From: Mycolicibacterium gilvum
Lineage (GTDB): Bacteria; Actinomycetota; Actinomycetes; Mycobacteriales; Mycobacteriaceae
Assembly: GCF_900454025.1 (NCBI RefSeq)
Contig: NZ_UGQM01000001.1
Span: 2,108,001 to 2,172,000, forward strand
Reading direction: 5' to 3'
Length of the DNA: 64,000 nucleotides
Every line of letters begins with the position of its first letter. Position 1 is the stretch's first letter. The position numbers were made by a program, and so were the translations under genes. The notes beneath the pieces were generated by a model. The model was not told the origin of the DNA. It saw only the letters and a list, made by a program, of their open reading frames with translations, and made no database searches. This document shows, one piece after another, positions 23,933 through 30,548 of this stretch.

Positions 23933-24706
23933 GTGGCTTCCAAACCCAAGAAGAACGCGCGTTACGACCTCAAGGCCGCCGACCGCAAGCGCAACCTGCT
24001 GATCCAGATCGGCCTGACGGCCGTCGTCGTCATCTTCGCGGTCGCGTTGGTGCTCTACATCGTGGGTTCGGCGGACGACAAGCCGACCGCCGGCGAGTCG
24101 CGCGGCATACGGGTGGAGTCGACGAGCGTCATCAAGAAGGAAGGCACCGACGAGCCCAAGGCCGTCGTGAGCATGTACGAGGACTTCCTGTGCCCGCACT
24201 GCGGTGCGTTCGAGCAGCAGTTCGGTCCGACGATCAACAAGCTGGTCGACGCGGGCGCCATCGCCGCGGACTACTACATGGTCGGCATCCTCGATCGTCC
24301 GCAGAACCAGAACTACCCGGCACGCGCCGGTGGTGCCGCCTACTGCGTCGCCGACGAGTCCATCGACGCGTTCAAGCGTTTCCACGCCGCCCTCTACGCA
24401 CAGCAGCCCGGCGAGACCGGTTCCGCCTACCCGGACAACGCCCGACTCATCGAGATCGCGCGCCAGTCCGGTGCGACCGGCGGAGTGCCCGAGTGCATCA
24501 ACAAGGGGACCTACGTCGACATGGTCGGCGGACTCGCCCGGGCAACCGAGATCAAGTCGACGCCGACGGTCCGCATCAACGGTGAGGAATACCAGTACAG
24601 CACCCCTGACGCGCTGGTCGCCAAGATCAAGGAGATCGTCGGCGACGTGCCCGGTCTGGAAGCCGCGCCGCCGGCACCCGCCCCGCAACCCGCTCCCGCA
24701 TCATGA
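23933..24706 (+). CDS. Membrane-anchored DsbA-like thiol oxidoreductase
   Basis: 257 aa, GTG start. One N-terminal membrane helix (LLIQIGLTAVVVIFAVALVLYIV) is followed by a thioredoxin fold with active site YEDFLCPHCGAF (CPHC) and the cis-Pro loop IKSTPTVRING. An additional Cys pair is in AAYCVADE and VPECINKG. It introduces disulfides into exported proteins. The C-terminal tail is Pro/Ala-rich. Its last codons overlap the VKOR start (ATGA), as expected for an oxidase-partner pair. Confidence 0.92.
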   Translation: MASKPKKNARYDLKAADRKRNLLIQIGLTAVVVIFAVALVLYIVGSADDKPTAGESRGIRVESTSVIKKEGTDEPKAVVSMYEDFLCPHCGAFEQQFGPTINKLVDAGAIAADYYMVGILDRPQNQNYPARAGGAAYCVADESIDAFKRFHAALYAQQPGETGSAYPDNARLIEIARQSGATGGVPECINKGTYVDMVGGLARATEIKSTPTVRINGEEYQYSTPDALVAKIKEIVGDVPGLEAAPPAPAPQPAPAS

Positions 24707-25338
24707 CCGTCACCGCGACCGACTCGGTAGATCACGCCGACCCGTCCGCCGACGAGGCGACGGGGGTCGCGGTTGCACGCGGTAGCGCACTGTGGGTGCT
24801 CATCGCCGGTGTCGTCGGCCTGGCCGCGGCCCTGACCCTCACGGTCGAGAAGATCGAGCTGCTCATCGATCCGGACTACATCCCGTCCTGCAGCATCAAC
24901 CCGGTGCTGTCCTGCGGGTCGGTGATGATCACCCCGCAGGCGTCGCTGTTCGGCTTCCCGAACCCGCTGATCGGCATCGTGTCGTTCACGGTCGTCGTGG
25001 TCACCGGTGTTCTCGCCCTGGTCAAGGTCTCCCTGCCGCGCTGGTACTGGGCCGGTCTGGCCGTCGCGACACTGCTCGGCACGGTGTTCGTGCACTGGCT
25101 GATCTTCCAGAGCCTGTACCGCATCGGCGCTCTGTGCCCGTACTGCATGGTGGTGTGGGCCGTGACGATTCCGCTGCTGGTGGTGGCGACCTCCGTCGCC
25201 GTGCAGGCCCAGCGCAGCGGCAACGCCGCGGTCAGGTTGATCTACACCTGGCGGTGGTCGCTGGTCACGCTCTGGTTCACCGGCGTCCTGCTGCTGATCC
25301 TCGAGCGATTCTGGAACTACTGGTCGACCCTGATCTAG
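24703..25338 (+). CDS. Vitamin K epoxide reductase (VKOR) family protein
   Basis: 211 aa, with four to five membrane helices. It has the loop Cys pair PSCSINPVLSCGSV, the CxxC LCPYCMVVW in the membrane, and a Ser/Thr-lined quinone site. In mycobacteria VKOR replaces DsbB and reoxidises the DsbA-like protein using menaquinone. It overlaps the upstream gene by 4 bases, so the two form one functional unit. The IS element begins somewhere in the noncoding DNA that follows. Confidence 0.93.
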   Translation: MTVTATDSVDHADPSADEATGVAVARGSALWVLIAGVVGLAAALTLTVEKIELLIDPDYIPSCSINPVLSCGSVMITPQASLFGFPNPLIGIVSFTVVVVTGVLALVKVSLPRWYWAGLAVATLLGTVFVHWLIFQSLYRIGALCPYCMVVWAVTIPLLVVATSVAVQAQRSGNAAVRLIYTWRWSLVTLWFTGVLLLILERFWNYWSTLI

Positions 25339-25516
25339 CTGGCGGTAGGTCGAGTCAAGGGGCGTGGTGGGCGTAGTTGGTCGACACCCTTGGTTGGGGT
25401 GTTGAAGTTTCTACGGCCGATGGTGCTGCGGGTGGATTGACGGGTGCCTGGCGCCCACGCTGACGTATGCAACCTCGTTGGGTGGTTATCTGGCGTCGTT
25501 CGGGCTGCCGCGGAGG

Positions 25517-25654
25517 CGAAGGGCCGGGTGCCAAGCTAGATGCGGCGTAACCCGCGGGGGTCCGCCATAGCCGACACGGCATCTGATCCGGCCCTTCGTC
25601 CCGTCTGCCTAGCGTGGCACTACCGACTGGAGTTGTGAAGGGTTGTTGGTCGGT
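25517..25654 (-). ncRNA. Candidate bridge RNA (seekRNA) of the IS110-type element
   Basis: Read on the transposase strand, a 6-base stem-loop (arms 25649-25654 / 25622-25627) comes first. It is followed by a long rod with an 11-base perfect outer stem (CGAAGGGCCGG, 25588-25598 with 25517-25527). The rod then has an asymmetric internal loop and a 6-base inner stem AGATGC/GCATCT (25579-25584 / 25538-25543), with further short pairing at the tip. An alternative pairing joins 25528-25538 with 25610-25620 (10 of 11). Bridge RNAs of IS110 recombinases have this stem-loop plus internal-loop plan. Function is inferred and no expression evidence exists. Confidence 0.5.
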
Positions 25655-25687
25655 CCTTTCTCGGGGTGTGGTGTCGCTGCGGGTGGC

Positions 25688-26911
25688 TCAGGCCCAGCGG
25701 GTTGGCTCGTAGACAGCGTGGTCACGCACGAGCGCGTGAGCGATTCGGTTGGCGCGGTTGGCCAGTGCGCAGGCCACCACGCCGCCGTGTTTGCCGCGGT
25801 CTTTGAGTTCGTGGGCGTAGGTCTTGGCTGCCGGTTCACTGAGCCACAGGCCGATACCGAGGTCGATCAACGCGCGGCGCAACGCGACGCTGCCTTCACG
25901 GCTGATGCCGCCATCGCGGCGTTTGTGGGCAGATTCGTACTGCACCGGCGAGAGGCCCGATGCACGGTAGATTTGTCGCGGCCCTGGCCATCGTTGCGGG
26001 TCACCAAGGGCTGCAGCGTAATTGGATACCCGCACCACGCCCCAGCCCGGTACCGAAGTCAATGTCGCGTACGGGCTGCGCGGCAGCAGCGACCCCAACT
26101 CCGTCTCGGCGGCATCAATCTGGGCGTCCAGGTCGGCCAACAGGGCCATGTCGGCGGCCAGGATTCGGCGGGCGATCACCGCGTCGCGCGTCGGCAGTGC
26201 ATCGCGCGCCACAGCGACCAGACGCTCGGCGACCGGTCGACGCAGTTGCAGGTCGCGAGTGGCGGCGAAACGGATCAGCCGGCTGACTCCCAGGCCGGCC
26301 AAACGGGCAGGGTCGGTGAACTCGGCGGCGACCAAACGGCCGATCTTGGTTCCCAGCACGTCGGGCAGCGCCAAGGTCAGTCCGGGAAACGCTCGGTCCA
26401 GTTGCCCGAGCAGCTGATTCTTCGTTGCGGTCCGCGTCGCGGTCCGCCGGCTCCGATGCACCGCCCAGGCGCTCACCTCACCAATCACGACATCGCGATC
26501 GCTCACCGAGCGCCCGTACCCGGCCAACACCAGATCGGTGATCGCTTCCAGGTCGATCACGTCGGTCTTGATGCGGCGCCGCCCCTGCACACGACGCTGC
26601 TCGGCGACCTGGGCGGGATTGAGCTCCAACACTTCCCACCCGGGCGGCCAGCGATGGTCGAGCACCGGTCGGTGATAGTGACCGGCGGCCTCCACACCGA
26701 CTTTGACCTGCCCTGATAGCGGGATCGAGGCCGTCGCCTCAGCGGTGACTGCCGCAAGACCGGTGCGGTTCATCGCAAACTCCGATGGCCCGAACAACCG
26801 ATGGCGACTCGCATCGGTCACCGACAACAGGGCCGAGGTCTTGCCGACATCGACAGCAACGACAATCGTGGACGACGTGACTGGAGCAACATGCACAGAC
26901 ACAACAGACAC
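25688..26911 (-). CDS. IS110-family transposase (DEDD recombinase)
   Basis: 407 aa. The N-terminal RuvC-like domain has all four acidic residues: VAVDVGKT (D21), VGVEAAGHY (E74) and KTDVIDLEAI (D117, D120). The C-terminal Tnp_20-type domain has SVPGWGVVRVSNYAAALGD and YRASGLSPVQYES with GGISREGSVALRRAL, which includes the conserved serine region. It appears intact. The 26911 GTG lies directly against GGAGG, so a GTG at 26902 is a better-spaced start. Enzymes of this family are guided by an element-encoded RNA. Confidence 0.93.
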   Translation of the reverse strand: MSVVSVHVAPVTSSTIVVAVDVGKTSALLSVTDASRHRLFGPSEFAMNRTGLAAVTAEATASIPLSGQVKVGVEAAGHYHRPVLDHRWPPGWEVLELNPAQVAEQRRVQGRRRIKTDVIDLEAITDLVLAGYGRSVSDRDVVIGEVSAWAVHRSRRTATRTATKNQLLGQLDRAFPGLTLALPDVLGTKIGRLVAAEFTDPARLAGLGVSRLIRFAATRDLQLRRPVAERLVAVARDALPTRDAVIARRILAADMALLADLDAQIDAAETELGSLLPRSPYATLTSVPGWGVVRVSNYAAALGDPQRWPGPRQIYRASGLSPVQYESAHKRRDGGISREGSVALRRALIDLGIGLWLSEPAAKTYAHELKDRGKHGGVVACALANRANRIAHALVRDHAVYEPTRWA

Positions 26912-27091
26912 CTCCGGGGCGTGTCAGGAGGTCCACGTGCGTCAACACACGGACCGCCAAAGGAATCGGTTACAGATCCCTTCCTGACACCTCCGGAGGC
27001 ATTGAGAAGGACTAACCCGATCTATATCAGCCGCCCGACGTGCGGTGATCACAGCCCGTGGTCGGGCTCGGTGAGAAAGATCAGCAAGGTT

Positions 27092-27101: not shown

Positions 27102-30100
27102 GTGGCTGGTCAGATAACCAAGGTCCTCGTCGCCAACCGTGGTGAGATCGCGATCCGCGCCTTTCGCGCGGCCTACGAGATGGGGATCGCCACCGTCGCG
27201 GTGTACCCCTACGAAGACCGCAATTCCCTGCACAGACTCAAAGCCGACGAGTCGTATCAGATCGGTGACGTCGGCCATCCGGTGCGGGCGTACCTGTCGG
27301 TCGACGAGATCATGCGCGTGGCGCTGGAAGCCGGCTGCGATGCGGTGTATCCGGGCTACGGGTTCCTCTCGGAGAATCCCGAGCTGGCTGCCGCGTGCGC
27401 GTCGGCGGGCATCACCTTCGTCGGTCCCAGTGCCCATGTGCTGGAACTGACCGGCAACAAGGCGCGCGCGATCGCGGCGGCACGCTCGGCCGGGCTTCCC
27501 GTCCTGGCGTCCTCAGAACCGTCCGCCTCGGTCGAGGAGCTCGTCGAGGCGGCGCGCACCATGGAGTTCCCGCTGTTCGTCAAGGCGGTCTCCGGTGGCG
27601 GCGGACGCGGCATGCGCCGGGTCGCCGAGCCCGAGGGGCTGGCCGAGGCGGTGGAGGCCGCCAGCCGCGAGGCGGAGTCCGCATTCGGGGATCCGTCGGT
27701 GTACCTGGAGCAGGCGGTGCTCAACCCGCGCCACATCGAGGTGCAGATCCTCGCCGATTCCCGCGGCAACGTGATGCACCTGTTCGAGCGTGACTGCAGC
27801 GTGCAACGCCGTCACCAGAAGGTCATCGAGCTCGCGCCGGCCCCGAATCTGCCCGAGGAGCTGCGGCAGCAGATCTGCGCCGACGCGGTCGCCTATGCCC
27901 GGGAGATCGGCTACACCTGCGCGGGCACCGTGGAGTTCCTGCTCGACGAACGCGGTCATCACGTCTTCATCGAGTGCAATCCGCGAATCCAGGTCGAGCA
28001 CACCGTCACCGAGGAGATCACCGACGTCGATCTGGTGGCCAGCCAGATCCGTATCGCGTCGGGTCAGACCCTCGCCGATCTGGGGCTGAGCCAGGAGGAT
28101 CTCGTCATCCGGGGTGCGGCGATGCAGTGCCGGATCACCACCGAGGATCCCGCCAACGGTTTCCGGCCCGACACCGGCCGGATCACCGCCTACCGCTCGC
28201 CCGGCGGCGCCGGAATCCGCCTCGACGGGGGCGCGGTGCTCGGCGGCGAGATCGGCGCCCACTTCGATTCGATGCTGGTCAAGCTCACCTGCCGGGGCCG
28301 CGACTTCGCCACCGCCGCCGCGCGGGCACACCGTGCGCTGGCCGAGTTCCGCGTCCGCGGAGTCTCGACGAACATCCCGTTCCTGCAGGCCGTCATCGAC
28401 GACCCGGACTTCCGGGCGGGCAGGGTCACCACGTCGTTCATCGACGAACGGCCGGGGCTGCTCACCTCGCACACGCCCGCCGACCGCGGAACGAAGATCC
28501 TCAACTACCTGGCCGATGTGACCGTGAACCAGCCGCACGGCCCGCGCCCGTCGACGGTGTATCCGCAGGACAAGCTGCCCCAGATCGACCTCAACACGAT
28601 GCCCCCGCGCGGCAGCAAGCACCTGCTCTCCGAGGTCGGTCCGGAGGGTTTCGCCCGCTGGATTCGGGAGTCCAAGGCGGTGGGTGTCACCGACACCACC
28701 TTCCGGGACGCGCACCAGTCGCTCCTGGCGACGCGCATCAGGACCTCGGGGATGCTGATGGTCGCGCCGTACGTCGCGCGGATGACCCCCCAGCTGCTGT
28801 CGATCGAATGTTGGGGTGGCGCAACGTATGACGTCGCTCTGCGGTTCCTCAAGGAGGACCCGTGGGAGCGGCTGGCGGCGCTGCGCGAAGCCGTGCCCAA
28901 CATCTGCCTGCAGATGCTGCTGCGCGGCCGCAACACCGTCGGGTACACGCCCTACCCGGAGTCGGTGACCCATGCCTTCGTTCAGGAGGCGACCGCCACG
29001 GGGATCGACATCTACCGCATCTTCGACGCGCTCAACAACGTCGACTCGATGCGTCCGGCGATCGACGCCGTGCGGGAAACAGGCACGGCCGTCGCCGAAG
29101 TCGCGATGTCCTACACCGGCGACCTGTCCGACCCGGCGGAGAACCTGTACACGCTGGACTACTACCTCAAGCTCGCCGAGCAGATCGTCGACGCGGGCGC
29201 GCACGTCCTCGGCATCAAGGACATGGCGGGGCTGTTGCGCCCGCAGGCCGCCGACACCCTCGTCGGGGCGTTGCGCAGTCGGTTCGACCTGCCGGTGCAC
29301 GTCCACACCCACGACACCCCCGGGGGTCAGCTCGCGACGTACCTGGCCGCGTGGCAGGCCGGCGCGAGTGCCGTCGACGGCGCGTCGTCGCCATTGGCCG
29401 GCACCACGAGCCAGCCCGCGCTGAGTTCGATCGTGGCCGCCACCGCTCACACCGAGTTCGACACCGGACTGTCCCTGGAAGCCGTGTGCGACCTCGAGCC
29501 GTACTGGGAGGCGCTGCGAAAGGTGTACGCGCCCTTCGATGTTGCCGCCGCGGGCCCGACCACGCCGACGGGACGGGTGTATCACCACGAGATCCCGGGC
29601 GGGCAGCTGTCGAATCTGCGCCAGCAGGCGATCGCGCTCGGGCTCGGCGACCGGTTCGAGCAGATCGAGGCCAGCTATGCCGCCGCCGATCGCATCCTCG
29701 GCCGGCTGGTCAAGGTCACCCCGTCGTCGAAGGTGGTCGGCGACCTGGCGCTGGCACTCGTGGGCGCGGGGGTGTCCGCCGACGAGTTCGCCGCCGACCC
29801 CGAACGTTTCGACATCCCGGATTCGGTGATCGGCTTCCTGCGCGGCGAGCTGGGAGACCCGCCGGGAGGCTGGCCGGAGCCGCTGCGCTCCAAGGCGCTC
29901 GCCGGGCGTGCCCCCGCCAAACCGGCGACCGAGTTGTCCGCCGAGGACACCGCGGCCCTCGCCGACGCCGGTGCCACGCGGCAGGCGACGCTCAACCGGT
30001 TGCTGTTCCCGGGGCCCACCAAGGAATTCGAGGCACACCGGGAGCAGTACGGTGACACCTCGAGCCTCTCGGCGAACCAGTTCTTCTACGGTTTGCGCCA

Positions 30101-30548
30101 CGGCGACGAGCACCGGGTCACCCTGGAGAAGGGCGTCCAACTGCTCATCGGCCTCGAAGCCATCTCGGATGCCGACGAACGCGGGATGCGCACCGTGATG
30201 TGCATCCTCAACGGGCAGCTGCGACCGGTCGTGGTTCGCGATCGCAGTGTCGCCAGCGAGGTTCCGGCCGCCGAGAAAGCCGACCGCAACAACCCCGACC
30301 ACGTCGCGGCGCCCTTCGCCGGCGTCGTCACCGTCAACGTGGCCGAGGGGGACCAGGTCGAGACCGGTCAGACGATCGCGACGATCGAGGCGATGAAGAT
30401 GGAGGCAGCGATCACGGCCCCGAAGGCGGGTGCCGTCGGTCGTGTCGCGGTCAGCGCGACGGCGCAGGTCGAAGGGGGAGACCTGCTGGTGGTGATCGGT
30501 TCCGCGGGCGCGAAGGTCAGCAGCGACGCGGCCGGGGAGTCGTCCTGA
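27102..30548 (+). CDS. pyc: Pyruvate carboxylase
   Basis: 1148 aa, GTG start. It is a single-chain biotin enzyme making oxaloacetate from pyruvate. The domains run in order. Biotin carboxylase spans residues 1 to about 450 ([44 protein letters not shown]). Carboxyltransferase runs from about 530 to 800 ([40 protein letters not shown]). A tetramerisation region and a C-terminal biotinyl domain follow, with EAMKMEA (biotinylated Lys 1099). It is the first gene downstream of the IS element, and the coding sequence is undisturbed. Confidence 0.97.

Follow-up and report, generated by a model that had tools for sequence, protein, structure and literature searches.

An IS110-family element between the VKOR and pyruvate carboxylase genes

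The window, the whole stretch of 64,000 nucleotides of Mycolicibacterium gilvum DNA that was analysed, contains an insertion element on the minus strand between two plus-strand genes, VKOR (24703-25338) and pyruvate carboxylase (27102-30548). The open reading frame that ends at 25338 carries PF07884 (VKOR), and the landing site of the element is the stop codon of this gene. We placed the ends by comparing the ends of copies and by comparison with empty sites.

25337..27028, minus strand: IS110-family element, 1692 bp including one core dinucleotide
25337-25338 and 27029-27030, minus strand: core CT, both copies, flanking the element
25337..25338, plus strand: right-hand core, which is letters 2-3 of the VKOR stop codon TAG (25336-25338)
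25688..26911, minus strand: IS110 recombinase (DEDD transposase), 407 aa, from Pfam, NF033542 and the IS621 match

In a profile search, the recombinase matched PF01548 (1.5e-24) and PF02371 (5.8e-13), and it scored 150.7 bits with NF033542 (cut-off, 140). It has a DEDD RuvC domain and a PF02371 domain with the catalytic Ser. IS621 and ISCro4 were its sole PDB sequence matches at E up to 1. The protein shares the motifs EA.G.Y, KTD..D and YES with the IS621 structure 8wt6 (E 3.3e-9). The alignment with IS621 covers the E, D, D and Ser regions; the first Asp lies outside it and was identified from the sequence. The noncoding DNA of this copy amounts to 349 nt downstream of the gene versus about 117 nt upstream. 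The 5' leader of the recombinase (26880-27030, minus strand) contains a long predicted hairpin, CCTCCGGAGGTGTCAGGA..TCCTGACACGCCCCGGAGG (z -3.56), with a GGAGG directly before the GTG start in its 3' arm. This hairpin may restrict translation of the recombinase.

Copies and relatives of the element

The window genome holds five copies, including the one described here; the other four have 77 to 83% DNA identity. A DNA search with the element gave matches, often short or marginal ones, in 70 of 297 genomes of the genus. We also built a covariance model of the RNA behind the gene from 18 copies, and it matched 39 places in 22 of 396 genus genomes. A transposase search of named GTDB contigs gave five loci, four of them in Mycobacterium or Mycolicibacterium. 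Two of the five (L068 and L071) were counted and one (L070) repeats L010, while L069 (nested ends as in L013) and L072 (remote, 26%) were left out of the counts.

The RNA sits 3' of the recombinase in the copies with a readable gene. It has the same position in relatives with 71, 69, 63 and 42% recombinase identity (L202, L205, L203 and L206) and in one with 41% (L209), and the guides of these relatives match their own flanks in part. For L209 the RNA model score was only 17.4 bits, and the guides were read by eye. Two internally deleted copies, L024 (659 bp) and L029 (570 bp), have kept both ends and the bridge RNA and lost the full gene. They are possibly guide-only elements moved in trans; because each was seen once, deletion after insertion is equally possible.

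Several copies have unusual surroundings. L013 and L069 each have two right ends 124 bp apart, and L013 also has two left ends 124 bp apart and a run of N, indicating a nested insertion or an assembly error. In L052, match coordinates place a foreign stretch of about 1.7 kb within the recombinase gene. A left end of the family lies inside an apparent other IS110-type transposase gene at L057 (by eye), so elements of this family might insert into each other. About 125 bases to the right of L002 recur at 100% identity at five places, including L002 itself (contig C1 of the window genome, near 536006, 980068, 1590336, 2221740 and 3770516). A second repeat family therefore adjoins the L002 insertion.

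A probable bridge RNA behind the recombinase gene

Sequence comparison shows that the stems in the noncoding region behind the gene are real, and the region very probably encodes the bridge RNA of an IS110-family element.

25442..25624, minus strand: bridge RNA, 183 nt, with bounds deduced from sequence conservation and from the closing stem GGUAGUGCC/GGCACCC, on the basis of alignments, covariation and model matches
25514..25602, minus strand: target-binding loop (stem, internal loop, inner hairpin), from covariation of helices 1-4 and guide-site covariation
25450..25509, minus strand: donor-binding loop (stem GGCAGCCCG/GUGGGCGCC, inner hairpin AACC..GGUU), helices 5-6

The original prediction of a candidate bridge RNA had named the pairings from which this structure starts. 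The 11-bp perfect stem of 25517-25527 (CGAAGGGCCGG) with 25588-25598 (CCGGCCCTTCG) is present, with its internal loop and inner stem, and this 25517-25598 structure appears to be the target-binding loop. The donor-binding loop would then lie 3' of it. A separate stem-loop at 25622-25654 (ACCGAC/GTCGGT) and a competing pairing of 25528-25538 with 25610-25620, in which 10 of 11 letters pair, were likewise found in their predicted places. When folded as the minus strand, 25339-25687 was more stable than every one of 100 shuffled versions (z -3.0). By energy, the trimmed 183-nt RNA is ordinary (z -1.49, with 16 of 200 shuffles equally stable); folding energy is therefore weak evidence, and the comparison of copies gives stronger evidence.

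The prediction had also called for compensatory changes in homologous copies, and these were found. We aligned 27 homologues (the close relatives, further mycobacterial copies, and L202, L205, L203 and L206) on the covariance model. Standard pairs filled 97.9% of pair cells, and 24 of 47 pairs had changed on both sides, versus 4.9 +/- 1.5 in shuffles and 1 to 6 in slid controls. Because L206 is very divergent, we recounted after removing it and adding three of the four copies in genome G772 (29 sequences). Double changes were then seen in 20 of 47 pairs, versus 6.2 +/- 1.6 in shuffles and 1 to 5 in slid controls. This count and the previous one are biased in favour of the structure, since each alignment had been fitted to the model. 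Among the 18 close relatives by themselves, aligned with MAFFT, only 2 of 44 pairs had double changes, a number reached by 46 of 500 shuffles. The three most-changed pairs were a donor hairpin pair (GC/AU, 16 versus 11 in the 27 sequences and 18 versus 11 in the 29), a target-loop pair (UA/CG, 22 versus 6 in the 29) and the core-letter pair (CG/UA, 22 versus 7 in the 29), for which shared pairing with the core would give the same result.

The other predicted pairings are less uniform. The 5' hairpin at 25622-25654 is only partly conserved: 15 of 36 copies have a pairing partner of 5 bp or more, where about 6 would be expected. The competing pairing, a possible regulatory switch, is mutually exclusive with the closing stem (P1) and is 96% paired in the 18 relatives, with one pair broken in 5 of the 18. 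No compensatory changes in P1 or the competing pairing were found among these 18 close relatives. In most copies, the 5' strand of the RNA, which resembles the right half of the target, is able to pair with the right target guide. Within the window, no Rfam family reached its gathering score.

The target-binding loop matches the landing sites

Across elements, the letters of the target loop that precede G(C/T)U-AUGG and CUA(G/A)C vary. They fall within two candidate guides.

25569..25576, minus strand: left target guide (LTG) UGUCGGCU; site positions L-3, L-2 and L-1 against RNA nt 75, 76 and 77
25535..25542, minus strand: right target guide (RTG) CAUCUAGC, complement of GCTAGATG; site positions R1 and R2 against RNA nt 109 and 108

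The variable, site-matching letters of the LTG are about four before GCU. In the RTG, the two letters preceding CUAGC match the site, and CUAGC is the fixed part. A column scan compared the variable RNA columns with 24 flank positions by identity or complement (6960 tests, 38 insertions). L-3 ranked first, R2 second, R1 third, L-1 fifth and L-2 ninth, all of them collinear in the loop. The fourth-ranked column is unrelated, a chance rank that is expected with 6960 tests. The prediction had left room for the 25622-25654 hairpin as the second guide loop. That hairpin is weakly conserved and absent from the site-matching columns, and the second guide loop is instead the donor loop at 25450-25509.

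We then compared each guide with its own site in 46 insertions carrying 29 distinct guide pairs. Own guides matched 199 letters versus 105.9 +/- 9.6 when guides were permuted, and the maximum of 20,000 permutations was 140. The five left positions matched in 8, 21, 24, 37 and 37 of 42 insertions (null, 7.1, 12.1, 10.9, 20.2 and 15.6), and the three right positions matched in 31, 28 and 13 of 46 (null, 11.7, 14.4 and 13.9). The fifth LTG letter (8 versus 7.1) and the third RTG letter (13 versus 13.9) are thus at chance level, which leaves an effective target of about four letters, then G(C/T)TAG, then two letters. The own guide exceeded the mean of the other guides at 40 of 42 sites with both flanks. 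For the window copy, the RNA has UGUCGGCU and predicts GCTAGATG, and the actual site reads GGGCGGCT and GCTAGATC; five of eight variable letters match, and one other guide scores equally.

RNA matches without readable ends and left-end-only fragments (for example L018, L020, L021, L025, L030, L032, L033, L054-L056 and L059-L062) were excluded from the guide tests, and L031 (degenerate RNA, no ends) was removed before them. L013, with its run of N and nested ends, was excluded from the 46-insertion permutation and from the 36-insertion stop-codon test below. It was retained in the 38-insertion scan, the core comparison and the 28-insertion stop-codon test.

The four copies in G772 (L216, L221, L223 and L225) are nearly identical, and their left target guide reads ACGG in two and ACCG in two. 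This one-letter difference appears to be natural reprogramming.

The donor-binding loop carries letters of the element ends

The donor loop and the ends provide the following features.

25488..25498, minus strand: left donor guide candidate CGACGCCAGAU, with the right-end letters ..CGCCAG-CT except the first core letter
25458..25470, minus strand: right donor guide (RDG) GCAUACGUCAGCG; UCAGC pairs with the left end GCTGA, and reads UCAAC in TT-core elements
27019..27030, minus strand: left end, core CT and then GATATAGATC; its GA would convert an upstream TAG to TGA
25353..25358, minus strand: right-end TTGACT, resembling a -35 box; in the circle, TATAGA of the left end is 18 nt away

In 38 copies, the RDG has UCAGC with a CT core and UCAAC with a TT core, and pairs with the left end G(C/T)TGA. 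In the 38 copies compared, the readable ends and the LTG, RTG and RDG all indicate the same core letter; the core motif of L091 was read by eye, as the automatic parse had split it. GCCAGAU occurs in 38 of 38 copies; it agrees with the right end in GCCAG and in the second letter of the core. At the first core letter, this left donor guide has A in 38 of 38 copies whatever the core, which is a mismatch. The four G772 copies have GCCAGCU, a complete match to their right end GGCCAG-CT, and this full match supports the assignment of the left donor guide. The predicted match of the loops to target and donor, at the insertion site and at the element ends, was found, with the core letter covarying with the ends. 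The guide-site matches and the covariation bear out the placement of an IS110-family bridge RNA 3' of its recombinase.

Comparison of copies gave the junctions ..G-(C/T)T-GATAT.. on the left and ..CCAG-(C/T)T-AG.. on the right. TTGAC is present in 45 of 46 right ends and missing in the deleted copy L024. When the ends are joined, 18 nt (17 in L206) separate it from the letters that follow GA in the left end. These letters read TAT in 39 of the 41 left ends that could be read, and TAC in L206 and L209. A circle-junction promoter is described for the IS110 family in passages of PMC11187229 and PMC11208160, and the present element may be transcribed from such a promoter. A subterminal imperfect repeat, TAGATCGAGT/TAGGTCGAGT, has 9 of 10 letters in CT-core copies and is absent from most TT-core copies, and the terminal extensions differ from 7/3 bp (all by eye).

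Empty sites carry CTAG wherever they are cleanly readable. For L005, the relative L153 (85% identity) reads ..CCCGTCG-GCTAG-GCGAGCC.. without the element and aligns over nearly the whole joined site. For L004, L154 reads GACC-GCTAG-CCTC, with gaps beyond. CTAG is found at the VKOR stop in 5 of 13 loci related to the window site (L040, L041, L042, L043 and L044); two of the 13 are the same place, and the remaining loci differ at the stop or align poorly. Two comparisons for L003 and nine more for L005 were unclean, and two of these nine (L127 and L129) still show TAG. The empty-site comparison gave no target duplication beyond the shared core.

Insertions at stop codons

The constant guide letters spell G(C/T)TAG, and because this part is fixed the sites are often stop codons, a kind of target that the original prediction did not mention. 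We used a strict codon-position test, in which an open, coding-like frame ends exactly at the target TAG (TAG/TAA on the other strand). Of 28 mycobacterial insertions with long flanks, 13 were at a stop codon and none was inside a gene. Background GYTAG sites (864 kb, five genomes) were at a stop codon in 46 of 209 cases and inside a gene in 37 of 209 (Fisher p 0.007 and 0.006, respectively). Without L013 and with nine distant-genome insertions, 18 of 36 were at a stop codon and 1 of 36 inside a gene (p 0.0007 and 0.012), a comparison in which the background is five mycobacterial genomes scored by codon-position GC only and 9 of the 36 insertions come from other genomes. The lone inside insertion, L216, also passes the stop test. 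In the window's own genome, four of five copies pass and L002 fails.

Pfam backs a gene at 17 of 46 insertions: L001 (VKOR), L003, L004 (citrate synthase), L005 (DisA), L008, L009, L011, L014, L024, L029, L048, L086, L100 (tRNA methyl transferase), L202, L216, L221 (MoaE) and L223 (EF-Ts). For 42 insertions, Pfam was run on the ORFs of 60 codons or more, 43 in all; for three of the four G772 copies, it was run on the right-hand ORFs only.

On the left side, ..G(C/T)TAG becomes ..G(C/T)T+GA, with GA coming from the left end of the element, so that a stop codon TAG becomes TGA. On the right side, a gene on the opposite strand retains TAG, or TAA with a TT core. Neighbouring proteins therefore keep their length.

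This pattern may be a by-product: CTAG and TTAG are rare inside high-GC genes, and gene-breaking insertions would be lost. We consider this account a serious possibility that falls a little short of an even chance. GYTAG lies inside genes at 37 of 209 background sites (five genomes) versus 57 to 72% for four different motifs of five letters, counted on one strand of the own genome, and the 46 of 209 background sites mentioned above are already stop codons. The enrichment is also weak when sites outside gene interiors serve as background, with a modest excess of 13 of 28 versus 46 of 172 (p 0.03). However, in all guides used the AG that follows the core is constant and the letters adjacent to it vary; the search patterns did include these letters, with mismatches allowed. 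The donor has GA there and does not require AG, and we take the fixed AG as a sign of selection for stop codons. The GA after the core, which preserves the stop, is likewise found in 40 of the 41 left ends that could be read, and the one left end without it, L114, does not sit at a stop codon according to the test. Part of the stop-codon pattern is nonetheless explained by harmless insertions surviving and by CTAG being rare in high-GC genes. The reading we put forward, which we hold to be evenly poised between true and false, is that an actinobacterial IS110 clade has hard-wired UAG recognition, drifting flank letters, and ends that preserve the stop codons of both neighbours.

The sole RNA seen without TAG complementarity is that of L031 (genome G150), with CCAGC instead of CUAGC in the right guide. 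It represents either decay or a guide that abandoned the stop codon. No earlier link of such elements with stop codons was found in the literature as represented by titles, the starts of abstracts, and passages of PMC2516522, PMC3196728 and PMC11187229, with thin coverage of subscription journals.

Placement within the IS110 family

The original prediction had taken the downstream RNA as pointing to the IS1111 branch. The longer noncoding region and the RNA are indeed downstream of the gene, as in IS1111 elements, and not in the left end before the gene, where IS110-group elements have their bridge RNA. The CT-core copies also have the short imperfect subterminal repeat. An IS1111-branch seekRNA is nevertheless improbable. 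The LTG, which matches the bottom strand, precedes the RTG, which matches the top strand; IS1111 elements have the top-strand complement first. According to passages of PMC11187229, the order found here is that of the IS110 family member, the tested IS1111 members have the reverse, and IS110-type elements with a downstream noncoding region exist. The recombinase has 407 aa versus 330-350 for IS1111 transposases, and it matches IS621 and ISCro4. Read by eye, the subterminal repeat is not retained in most TT-core copies, and the extensions seem to differ from 7/3 bp. The order of the guides, the size of the recombinase and its relatives of solved structure all agree with the IS110 group, and we therefore read the element as IS110-type with a right-end bridge RNA, apparently a variant of a known element type.

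Proposed mechanism and its meaning

The following model is drawn from sequence: from the RNA structure, the guide-site matches, the covariation of the core, the structure of the ends and the stop-codon sites. Excision would join the right and left ends into a circle, and a promoter would arise from TTGAC of the right end and TATNNN of the left end at 18 nt. This promoter would transcribe the recombinase and then the RNA behind the gene. The RNA would fold into the closing stem, the target-binding loop and the donor-binding loop, and would bind the recombinase. The LTG would pair on the bottom strand, to the left of the core, and the RTG would pair on the top strand, from the core towards the right. 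Between them, the two guides would specify about four variable letters, G(C/T)TAG and two variable letters. In the donor loop, UCA(G/A)C would pair with the left end, and GCCAG.. has the right-end letters. The recombinase would exchange strands at the CT/TT core as IS621 does.

That the structure serves the transposase mRNA purely as a 3' UTR, terminator or attenuator, and guides nothing, is highly improbable, because its place directly behind the gene and the better-than-shuffled folding of the 349-nt region are set against variable loop letters that track the insertion site of each copy beyond permutation, a core letter that covaries with the DNA ends, and the RNA retained in L024 and L029 without a full gene.

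Bridge RNAs are the basis of programmable recombinases. The present family offers natural guide-target pairs, with many guides on near-identical scaffolds and a one-letter change within one genome, and guide rules are therefore readable from evolution. If the bridge RNA reading with hard-wired stop-codon recognition is true, this RNA-guided element homes to the 3' ends of many genes at little cost to the host, and its targets would probably include essential genes such as the EF-Ts gene. It suggests a route to broad yet nearly harmless RNA-guided targeting, which is to aim at the stop codon and rebuild the stop. Recombinases that insert at gene ends and leave the protein unaltered could be useful for tagging or for operon-style insertion.

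Comparison with known systems

The target loop before the donor loop is the IS621 layout. IS621, as described in passages of PMC11208160, also resembles the present element in an LTG and RTG that flank a CT core, in a DEDD + Ser recombinase, and in a circle-junction promoter. The two differ in the place of the RNA, which here is in the right end behind the gene and in IS621 precedes the gene in the left end. Recombinase length is 407 aa here and 328 in IS621, and the present element has a fixed AG after the core in the target and a core that can be TT. ISEc11-like IS1111 seekRNA elements likewise have the RNA region downstream of tnp and show natural re-targeting through guides, in the relevant passages of PMC11187229. 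They differ in the order of the target matches, which is reversed here, and in their 7/3-bp terminal extensions, which the present element, read by eye, does not seem to have; its subterminal repeat is weak.

Two other elements bear on the choice of target, each as given in parts of its source. IS900 of M. avium subsp. paratuberculosis (PMC8141618) is a mycobacterial IS110-family element with the fixed target motif CATGNNNNNNTCTCCTT. In our reading this motif suggests a start codon and ribosome site, whereas the target of the present element is a stop codon. ISLxc2 of the IS481 family (PMC2516522) inserts at NCTAGN, with a stop codon likewise in the target. It differs in belonging to another IS family and in duplicating its target, which ends the transposase's own gene.
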